Source: Methanococcoides methylutens MM1 (GTDB lineage Archaea > Halobacteriota > Methanosarcinia > Methanosarcinales > Methanosarcinaceae). From it: a stretch of 64,000 bases of DNA. Every line of letters starts with the position of its first letter. Within the stretch, counting starts at the first letter, position 1. The DNA is taken from assembly GCF_000970325.1 (NCBI RefSeq), contig NZ_CP009518.1, positions 930,001 to 994,000 of the forward strand. The letters are read 5' to 3'. Below are positions 40,767 to 43,909 of this stretch, piece by piece. Below the pieces are notes generated by a model. That model searched no databases and was not told where the DNA came from. It saw nothing but the letters and a program-made list of their open reading frames with translations. The translations under genes were made by a program, and so were the position numbers.

Positions 40767-41882
40767 TCAATACTTCAATGCAAAGTACATGCTTCCCATG
40801 GCCACCAGTGTAACCAGAAGACCGATGAGTCCTCCCACATATGGCAGTTCTGTAAGTACAAGTATCAGGAAGAGTCCAAGGGCCAGTACTCTCCACTGGT
40901 TATATTCGAACCCGACCTTTCTGAACGTTACTTCTCCCAGCCACATTGCAGTGTATATCTTTGCGATCATCACAACGATGAACAGCAGGAGTAGCAGGAA
41001 AAGAGCTATGGGTATGCCGATGATGGTTATCATCAGGACAAGTGATCCTATGATGGTACCCACTAATATCAGGAGCCCGACGGCGACGTTCTTGAAAGGC
41101 TGTTCCTGAATATCTCTTACGATCTCTTCGGTCTTGGAAGGGAATACAAGGATGGATATTACTCCCAGTACGAAGAGGAACATGTAATATGCGATCTTGC
41201 CGATGAATGTTATTACATTGAGAACACCTTCGCCATTGAAACGGTCTTCGCGTGGGGCTGGCTTCTCCGGCTTTATCTCTTCACCTACAACTCCTGCCGG
41301 GATAGATATCTCTTTTTGGGTGCTGTATTCGAGATTTCCTTTTATGCTGGAGTTTGGCTGGATCGTCAGATCAGAGGCATCCAGTACTGCGTTTCCATCA
41401 ACATTGCCGGCTAATGTCAGATCACCTGCTGAGACATCCAGCAGTCCTCCGAAGTTACCTCCAATATCTGCATCACCACTTCTGATGGTGGTATCGCCGC
41501 CTACGTTTGCGATGTCGGTTGTTGAGACCGAACCGGCAGTTACCAGAAGATCGTCACCGATCTGACCACTAAGTTCGAAATTGCCGCATGCAACCCTTAC
41601 ATCATCCCCGATATCGCCGGTAATGATCACATCACCTGCAGCAATGATGAGGTCACCGGAGACGTTCCCGTGGATCTCGACAGTGCCGCCTGTGGCAACG
41701 ACATCACCAAGGACAGTACCGTTCACTATCAGTGTATTGCCTGCAAGGTAGACGTCATCCTCAACGAGGTCGTCGATGATCACTGTGTCCCCGGCGTCAA
41801 CCATCATAGCTGCATTTGCATTGCCTGCAAAAAACAGTATCAAGAGCATAGGTAATAACCATAACTTTCGTTCGATCTTCAT
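40767..41882 (-). CDS. Polymer-forming (bactofilin-like) repeat protein with membrane domain
   Basis: 371-aa protein with a signal peptide (residues 1-24, ending ANA), then a right-handed beta-helix of repeated short strands (about 25-195), with units such as GDVVATGGTVEIHGNVSGDL and GDLIIAAGDVIITGDIGDDV, and a C-terminal region with about four membrane helices (225-371). The helix is of the polymer-forming/bactofilin type and should lie outside the membrane. Function unknown, probably cell-surface structure. Promoter-like AATTATATTTATTG lies before the start. It runs opposite to the SepCysS operon. Confidence 0.85.
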   Translation of the reverse strand: MKIERKLWLLPMLLILFFAGNANAAMMVDAGDTVIIDDLVEDDVYLAGNTLIVNGTVLGDVVATGGTVEIHGNVSGDLIIAAGDVIITGDIGDDVRVACGNFELSGQIGDDLLVTAGSVSTTDIANVGGDTTIRSGDADIGGNFGGLLDVSAGDLTLAGNVDGNAVLDASDLTIQPNSSIKGNLEYSTQKEISIPAGVVGEEIKPEKPAPREDRFNGEGVLNVITFIGKIAYYMFLFVLGVISILVFPSKTEEIVRDIQEQPFKNVAVGLLILVGTIIGSLVLMITIIGIPIALFLLLLLFIVVMIAKIYTAMWLGEVTFRKVGFEYNQWRVLALGLFLILVLTELPYVGGLIGLLVTLVAMGSMYFALKY

Positions 41883-42052
41883 AGTAACCCCACCCGGATA
41901 GTCAATAAATATAATTGAATATGTAATATTGGTCTGTCCTTACTATTAAGATTTACTTAAGAAGCTTTAATTATCTAATTGATAGAGATCAGGCTATCTA
42001 TCTTATGTATAGTTCAAAAAAGAGTGTCCGATTATAGTAAATAATGTATTGG
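41883..42052. other. Promoter-side spacer of the polymer-forming protein gene
   Basis: AT-rich, holds the minus-strand promoter of the preceding gene (TATA-like AATTATATTT). No gene or clear hairpin seen before 42053. Confidence 0.4.
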
Positions 42053-42182
42053 CATATCACGGTCCAACGGGATAGAAGACCGTGATATGACAATTCACTT
42101 GCCCCCACTTTGAAGTTTTGAAAGCCTCTTAGGGCCTTTCAGATCATCTCTAAGGTCAAGAGAAACGGCAAACTCTTGACCT
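42053..42182. ncRNA. Candidate structured RNA with three hairpins
   Basis: Three stems in 130 bases: CATATCACGGTC/GACCGTGATATG (42053-42064 with 42078-42089, 12 bp perfect); GAAAG-CC / GG-CTTTC (42120-42126 with 42133-42140, one bulge); AGGTCAAGAG/CTCTTGACCT (42153-42162 with 42173-42182, 10 bp perfect). Open single-stranded stretches between them include GCCCCCACTT. No open frame with a start signal crosses the region. Strand is undecided: on plus, hairpin three is followed by CTCTTATTATG; on minus, a TATA-like TTTTATAG lies just upstream near 42211-42217, which would start the RNA right before hairpin three. Confidence 0.5.
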
Positions 42183-42370
42183 CTTATTATGTATATTATA
42201 AAATCCTTCTATAAAAGTATATGCCTAATATCAGTACTTCAATGGTACTTATTATTTATTAATGTACATAACTCGACATTGCCTTTATACTCTTATTTAT
42301 ATATCAGTAAATACCACAGTAGTATGGCGTGGGTTTACTTCTGCAATTAATAGTCCTGTATTCGGGTACT

Positions 42371-42379
42371 CTTATATAG
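42371..42379 (+). promoter_or_regulatory. TATA box of the SepCysS-metY-metX operon
   Basis: CTTATATAG, predicting transcription start near 42401, at the edge of the next palindrome. The leader would be about 130 bases. Confidence 0.5.
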
Positions 42380-42400
42380 CAGCTCTGTAAATCTGCACAA

Positions 42401-42417
42401 TGTTAACGCCGTTAACA
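42401..42417. promoter_or_regulatory. Palindrome at the predicted transcription start of the sulfur operon
   Basis: TGTTAACG-C-CGTTAACA, perfect 8-bp arms with a one-base centre. Position on the start site points to a repressor, perhaps responsive to sulfur or methionine status. Confidence 0.5.
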
Positions 42418-42427
42418 TAACAAAGAA

Positions 42428-42446
42428 GACCGTTTAAAGAACGGTC
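42428..42446 (+). promoter_or_regulatory. Leader hairpin of the sulfur operon
   Basis: GACCGTT-taaag-AACGGTC, perfect 7-bp stem in the 5' leader, about 83 bases before the SepCysS start. Confidence 0.4.
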
Positions 42447-42529
42447 CATGTATAGCAGACCGATCGCCTGGGGAGTCGAAATAGTAATTTACTTTTTCAT
42501 ATGTCCCTAAACGAGCAGGTGGTAACAGA

Positions 42530-43909
42530 ATGGATGAACAAATCAATAAAAGATATCTCGCCAACAAAATATTTGAAACCCAGTTTGCACTGGAGGATCT
42601 CAGGCAGATCGTAAGAGAGGCTCTACCTACGGGTATGACCGACGAGCAGTCTGCACGTTTTTCTGAGATCGTGTCGGGTCTTGGCGGCCTTGTCGAGGAG
42701 ATAGGCGCAAAAGACGGCCAAACACAACCTGTCAGTATTGTGGGCGACCTCATGTGCCGTACAAGGGAAGAGGAGTTCATAAACATACAGCCCATTCAGG
42801 CCGGTGGCCGACTGACCCCGGAAGCCCGCAAAGCTGTCATAGCTTATGGGGACGGTTACTCAACCTGTGACAGTTGCCGAAAGCCTTTCAGGCTCGATAA
42901 GATCGAAAAACCTTCGATCGCAGGATTCCACACAGATCTCGCCGAGTTCGTTGGAATGGACCAGGCAAGAGTTGTCCCTGGTGCCAGAAGAGGTTTCCAG
43001 GCCGTTGCTTCAACCCTTGTTGAAAAGGGTGACGATGTGGTCGTATCTGCATTTGCACATTATACTGAGTTCCTGGCCGTGGAAGGTGCTGGTGGATCGA
43101 TCAGAGAGGCTCCTGTTAACGAGGACAATATACTCACTGCCGAATCAGTGGCACACAAGATAGATGAAGTGAAGAAAGAAACCGGAAAATTGCCGTCACT
43201 GATCATGATCGATCACTTCGACTATCTGCTATGTAATGAACACGATATCTACGGTATCGGTAAGGTTGCACAGGAATACGGAATTCCGTTCCTCTATAAT
43301 GGAGCATATACAGTGGGTATCATGCCTGTTGATGGAAAGAAGCTCGGTGCGGACTTTATAGTAGGTTCCGGCCACAAGAGCATGGCTTCAGTGGCTCCTT
43401 CAGGAGTGCTGGCAACCACGGAAGAATGGGCCGACAAGATATTCAGGACAACCCAGATGGTGGGTGATGTCACCGGTAGGAAGTTCGGTATCAAAGAGGT
43501 AGAGTTCCTTGGGTGCACACTTATGGGAGCTCCATTGCTGTCAATGATGGCATCGTTCCCGTATGTGAAAGAAAGGACAAAGCACTGGGATGAGGAAGTC
43601 AAGAAATCCAACTATTTCCTCAACGAGTTCCTGAGGATAGAAGGAAACGAAGTGCTGAGCGAGTTCCCGAGAAAGCATGCCCTTACCAAGGTGGATACAA
43701 CCAATACCTTCGACAAGGTAGCAAAGACGCACAAGCGCAGGGGCTACTTCTTCAGTGACGAACTGAAGAAACGTGGCATCGTAGGCGAGTTCCCTGGTGC
43801 TACCAGAAGCTGGAAGCTGAGCACATACGGACTTTCATGGGACCAGATACACTATCTCTCGGATGCATTCCTTGAGATCGCTGAAAAATACGAACTTAAC
43901 ATCAACTGA
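42530..43909 (+). CDS. pscS: O-phospho-L-seryl-tRNA:Cys-tRNA synthase (SepCysS)
   Basis: 459-aa PLP enzyme converting Sep-tRNA(Cys) to Cys-tRNA(Cys), the tRNA-dependent cysteine route of methanogens. Conserved points: the N-terminal pair C113-x2-C116 (STCDSC), the PLP lysine in GSGHKSMAS, and a further conserved Cys in FLGCTLMGAP. An N-terminal region of about 75 helical residues precedes the usual core; some methanogens carry the scaffold protein SepCysE fused there, and this extension may be such a domain (inference). AGGTGGT ribosome binding site; first gene of a tight three-gene operon. Confidence 0.92.
   Translation: MDEQINKRYLANKIFETQFALEDLRQIVREALPTGMTDEQSARFSEIVSGLGGLVEEIGAKDGQTQPVSIVGDLMCRTREEEFINIQPIQAGGRLTPEARKAVIAYGDGYSTCDSCRKPFRLDKIEKPSIAGFHTDLAEFVGMDQARVVPGARRGFQAVASTLVEKGDDVVVSAFAHYTEFLAVEGAGGSIREAPVNEDNILTAESVAHKIDEVKKETGKLPSLIMIDHFDYLLCNEHDIYGIGKVAQEYGIPFLYNGAYTVGIMPVDGKKLGADFIVGSGHKSMASVAPSGVLATTEEWADKIFRTTQMVGDVTGRKFGIKEVEFLGCTLMGAPLLSMMASFPYVKERTKHWDEEVKKSNYFLNEFLRIEGNEVLSEFPRKHALTKVDTTNTFDKVAKTHKRRGYFFSDELKKRGIVGEFPGATRSWKLSTYGLSWDQIHYLSDAFLEIAEKYELNIN

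Follow-up and report, generated by a model that had tools for sequence, protein, structure and literature searches.

A predicted small RNA family specific to the genus Methanococcoides, with a secondary structure supported by compensatory base changes

Background

Three closely spaced hairpins are present in an intergenic region of the Methanococcoides methylutens MM1 genome. They raise the question of whether the region contains a small RNA gene, on which strand such a gene lies and how its product may act. Comparative support exists for few archaeal sRNA families, and no Methanococcoides sRNA family with such support was found reported in the literature searched.

The hairpins are located in a gap of 647 bases that carries no gene (positions 41883–42529 of the window, i.e., of the whole 64,000 nt stretch analyzed here). 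To the left of the gap there is a bactofilin-like gene (minus strand), and to its right SepCysS (plus strand). A preliminary description of the locus had proposed a possible new small RNA, and the gap and the three hairpins are confirmed where it placed them. There is a 12-bp perfect stem formed by CATATCACGGTC (positions 42053–42064) with GACCGTGATATG (42078–42089), a 10-bp perfect stem formed by AGGTCAAGAG (42153–42162) with CTCTTGACCT (42173–42182), and a bulged stem, TGAAAG.../...CTTTCA, at positions 42119–42141. The stability is far above that of shuffled sequence: folding z-scores are -4.8 (plus strand) and -5.2 (minus strand), and none of 200 dinucleotide shuffles is equally stable on either strand. 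The single-stranded sequence described as C-rich, or G-rich on the other strand, is CCCCCAC at positions 42102–42108 (GTGGGGG on the minus strand), and it is unpaired in the comparative structure. The feature extends beyond the limits first given to it. The stem of stem loop 3 (see below) continues outward to position 42044; with the TATA-like box and the U-run included, the whole covers approximately 42016–42217.

Comparative structure and strand

The structure was assessed on a structure-fitted alignment (A5) of ten rows. Standard pairs are present in 94.8% of its pair cells versus 27–48% with slid partners, where the alignment was fitted to the structure from six of the ten rows and favors that structure. 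Both sides have changed in 10 of the 35 pairs, which gives 37 double-sided (compensatory) cells; most of these double changes divide two clades, so that independent events are fewer than cells. The covariation score is 0.359, versus 0.210 for shuffled sequences and at most 0.106 with slid partners. In a plain MAFFT alignment of all 11 sequences, too, five of the stem 3 pairs have changed on both sides. The comparison shows that the predicted product is a structured RNA conserved on the minus strand, and conservation of secondary structure on one strand is characteristic of archaeal intergenic sRNAs.

The preliminary description had left the strand open, with mention of a TATA-like element directly upstream on the minus strand. 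Substitution types and folding energies both assign the RNA to the minus strand. When stem substitutions are read on that strand there are 33 G-U-type cells versus 13 A-C-type cells. The consensus energy is -43.2 for the minus strand and -23.4 for the plus strand, and the minus strand folds better in all 10 genomes compared, in six of them by at least 9 kcal/mol. A TATA-like box (42217–42209) and a U-run (42021–42016) are in register across the genus. Because G-U pairs arise on the minus strand, every genome compared folds better there, and the TATA-like box and U-run flank the structure, the predicted strand can be considered settled in silico. An RNA of the plus strand displaying CCCCCAC as an anti-Shine-Dalgarno sequence was also considered and is rejected on the strand asymmetry.

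Parts of the predicted RNA

The predicted transcript is approximately 172 nt (about 165–175 nt; positions 42016–42187, minus strand), where the start is an estimate based on the TATA-like box and on where stem loop 1 lies, and the end is taken as the U-run. The TATA-like box, CTTTTATAG (positions 42209–42217, minus strand), is approximately 25 nt upstream of the predicted start. It is nearly identical in the six clade-1 genomes, and a sequence similar to CTTTAAGTA is found at the same place in clade 2.

Stem loop 1 (42153–42182, minus strand) consists of the 10-bp stem and the loop UUUGCCGUUU. The core of the loop together with the 3' arm (UGCCGUUUCUCUUGACC), 17 nt in all, is invariant in all 11 genomes. 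Stem loop 2 (UGAAAGGCCCUAAGAGGCUUUCA, 42119–42141, minus strand) has a U-A/C-G exchange between the clades, and a C-G/U-A exchange relative to a 94%-identical relative (L031). A single-stranded linker (42095–42118, minus strand) connects stem loops 2 and 3 and has a G-rich core, GUGGGGG (42108–42102), that is kept in 10 of the 11 genomes, with A for G once (L035), and is lost in M. burtonii. Stem loop 3 (42044–42094, minus strand) is a long stem with many compensatory changes between the clades. The U-run UUUUUU (42016–42021, minus strand) is a candidate intrinsic terminator; a run of T4–T7 is found approximately 20–30 nt past stem loop 3 in 10 of the 11 genomes, and in L035 it is displaced by an insertion. 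The element thus has the intergenic position and the predicted promoter and terminator of its own that are typical of archaeal intergenic sRNAs, while its neighbors vary.

Between the sRNA and SepCysS there is a further block, ATGGCGTGGGTTTACTTCTGCAA (42310–42345), which is approximately 93% identical across clade 1 and is unrecognizable in clade 2.

Distribution

Of the 186 genomes of the order that were searched at the DNA level, all 11 of Methanococcoides have the element. There is one copy per genome, and not the several copies that are characteristic of mobile or repeated elements such as MITE or REP sequences. A covariance model built from six sequences (R1) found ten, and a second model built from ten sequences (R2), with M. 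burtonii left out, found all 11. The match in the window is at positions 42044–42182 of the minus strand (E = 1.6e-29). M. burtonii (genome G091, 2,575,032 bases, which we take to be strain DSM 6242) is matched by R2 at E = 5e-12 although it is outside the model. The pattern GAGTTNTGCCGTTTCTC matches clade 2 only.

The preliminary description had named covariation analysis across the Methanosarcinales and a covariance-model scan of Rfam as checks. The stems do covary within Methanococcoides, but no homologue was found in the 26 other genera of the order: R2 finds nothing at E ≤ 0.5 in their 175 genomes, in a search with a filtered first pass that very remote relatives could escape. R1 had given matches in other genera, all at chance level and gone with R2; the best of these (L118) lies beside a TRAM-protein-like gene. 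The Rfam scan found no family above the gathering cut-off, the best E values of 6.6–8 being those of chance. Among 84,980 species the invariant 17-mer is found in Methanococcoides (M. vulcani, M. seepicolus, M. alaskense and MAGs) and in scattered other records, mostly bacterial, that look like chance occurrences. The proposal of a new small RNA is therefore well supported by presence in all 11 genomes, compensatory changes and the lack of an Rfam match, while homologues in other Methanosarcinales genera were not found. As judged from sequence, the element represents a previously undescribed, genus-specific archaeal small RNA family, and the kind itself is ordinary.

A palindrome at the sRNA and SepCysS promoters

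A rare palindrome, GTTAACGCCGTTAAC, is located at positions 42402–42416, where the divergent SepCysS-metY-metX operon is predicted to start. GTTAAC-N3-GTTAAC is present at the promoter of this operon in all 11 genomes; among the loci read, at least six have it near nadA. The nadA sites adjoin heavy-metal/copper-ATPase-like genes. The longer form TGTTAAC-N3-GTTAACA occurs at positions 1501–1515 of loci L157, L167, L172 and L174, and also at 1786–1800 of L174. The clade-2 sRNA promoter has GTTAAC-N3-GTTTAC, exact in G096, G097 and M. burtonii and degenerate in G095 and G090, within a clade that shares one history. Clade-1 sRNA promoters, that of the window included, are without the palindrome. 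M. burtonii has exactly two exact GTTAAC-N3-GTTWAC sites genome-wide, one at SepCysS and the other at this sRNA. The chance of a random palindrome site in a given 100-nt promoter is approximately 1e-4, for a motif that was noticed post hoc.

TGTTAAC-N3-GTTAACA is a putative operator of some regulator. Because it is common to the SepCysS-metY-metX, nadA and sRNA promoters, we infer that the sRNA is probably part of a sulfur amino acid/NAD regulon in clade 2. A more specific proposal, tentative and somewhat unlikely, is that one repressor with this operator controls SepCysS-metY-metX, nadA and the sRNA, and that the sRNA, responsive to sulfur/cysteine (or to NAD/Fe-S), then adjusts mRNAs. Such a post-transcriptional role would be similar to that of sRNA154 for nitrogen.

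Independence of the RNA gene and mode of action

The genes that flank the RNA differ between genomes, and this bears on whether it acts in cis. A role as a structured 5' leader, such as a riboswitch or attenuator, for the bactofilin-like gene (40767–41882) is very improbable. This gene does share the strand of the RNA, its start in the window is approximately 130 nt downstream of the U-run, and it lies to the left of the RNA in seven genomes. In G095, G096, G097 and M. burtonii, however, it is not the neighbor, and in two of these (G096 and M. burtonii) its place is taken by a metallophosphoesterase gene in the opposite orientation, pointing toward the RNA. The structure is followed by a U-run in both clades, and the bactofilin-like gene has a conserved upstream block of its own (41920–41980). 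The same downstream gene in all genomes, which a cis leader or riboswitch would have, is not found. On the other side, SepCysS adjoins the RNA in 10 of the 11 genomes and has the palindrome in common with it in clade 2, as would be expected of an RNA with a cis effect on the divergent SepCysS-metY-metX operon, through leader pairing or promoter interference. This is nevertheless improbable, in that the two transcripts are predicted to diverge without overlap, pairing of the linker with the SepCysS leader is no better than that of shuffled linkers and has no conserved site, and in M. burtonii the RNA persists with SepCysS approximately 330 kb away. Since the neighbors vary while the RNA persists, it would be an independent RNA gene and the leader of neither neighbor.

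The reading that we favor, with moderate confidence, is a single-copy, genus-specific, minus-strand sRNA of approximately 165–175 nt with its own promoter and three stem loops that acts in trans by base pairing. Transcription would proceed from this promoter, divergent from SepCysS, and end at the U-run, and the RNA would display the G-rich single strand that links stem loops 2 and 3. It would most likely act as a riboregulator that presents the linker and/or the loop of stem loop 1 to mRNAs, as do sRNA162 and sRNA154. The linker is the first candidate for target binding because in Methanosarcina mazei sRNA162 the equally placed SL2–SL3 linker is the part that pairs with the target (PMC3510493); the loop of stem loop 1 is the second. 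Since the linker is G-rich, the usual masking of Shine-Dalgarno sequences would be impossible. Binding of G-rich or C-rich leaders had been suggested in the preliminary description; GUGGGGG is the sequence displayed and is widely kept, but a conserved complementary target was not found. The complement of the 17-nt invariant motif shows no excess in the genus, and duplex predictions against 48 leaders in the window and against those of SepCysS reveal no conserved pairing. Sites complementary to the linker outnumber those of a reversed-pattern control, but the count takes in sites at any location and may reflect codon usage.

The main rival is an independent sRNA that binds a protein, in sequestration or as a scaffold, through the invariant stem loop 1 and the G-run and not by pairing with mRNA. 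The 17 nt of stem loop 1 and the G-run are conserved beyond the needs of pairing, and the lack of a conserved complementary target (motif complement and SepCysS leaders) is consistent with it. Each motif is present once, however, without the repeated array of protein sites in CsrB-type RNAs, and we know of no archaeal protein with such specificity, and a protein-binding role is considered unlikely. In most genomes short reading frames open at the G-run or past it, and GUGGGGG resembles a Shine-Dalgarno sequence from which a small protein could be read; but from one clade to the other these frames vary in start, length and sequence, with changes that obey the stem pairing, which makes a coding function extremely improbable.

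Comparison with known archaeal sRNAs

The trans-acting sRNA proposed here resembles M. mazei sRNA162/sRNA171 (PMC3510493) in architecture, being likewise intergenic and built of three stem loops, the second and third of which are joined by a single-stranded linker. Further properties in common with sRNA162, which is 191 nt and from a related genus, are a promoter and terminator of its own (predicted here) and restriction to one genus. There are also differences. The neighbor of sRNA162 is an ArsR regulator, and the linker is its most variable part, whereas in Methanococcoides the G-run of the linker is among the most conserved parts. Homology was not detected: in the one direction searched, from the Methanococcoides model, R2 has no match at E ≤ 0.5 in genus g13, presumably Methanosarcina, and R1 has one chance-level match there (E = 0.7).

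M. mazei sRNA154 (PMC5867862, PMC3177094) is likewise a conserved structured intergenic sRNA with the operator of a metabolic repressor, NrpR, to which the putative GTTAAC palindrome operator would correspond in clade 2 only. It differs in being described with two stem loops and in the NrpR operator GGTA-N6-TACC, which is not present in the aligned upstream sequences as inspected by eye. No homology to sRNA154 was detected. A search for sRNA154 itself by its published primer sequences gave no match, probably because the primers have altered bases. The cold-induced sRNAs of Methanolobus psychrophilus (PMC5378194), compared by description only, are intergenic, from the same methanogen family and in some cases conserved; the Methanococcoides RNA differs in that no homologue of it was found in other genera of the order.

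The Methanococcoides family offers an in silico strand, predicted ends and a structure supported by covariation, together with a putative clade-2 operator in common with genes of Cys-tRNA and methionine synthesis. The sRNA is perhaps tied to sulfur/NAD metabolism, and it is directly testable in cultured species (M. burtonii, M. alaskense and M. vulcani).

SepCysS-like genes

The SepCysS gene adjacent to the RNA in the window (42530–43909) is the first of a cluster that also contains metY and metX. Relative to the family model, its product has an N-terminal extension of approximately 65–75 residues. The same genome has a second SepCysS-like gene, which is shorter. A third (G000:C1:2076333-2077430), with its orthologues, has an in-frame TGA in several Methanococcoides genomes and an in-frame TAG too in some species, for which a pseudogene or recoding are the candidate readings.
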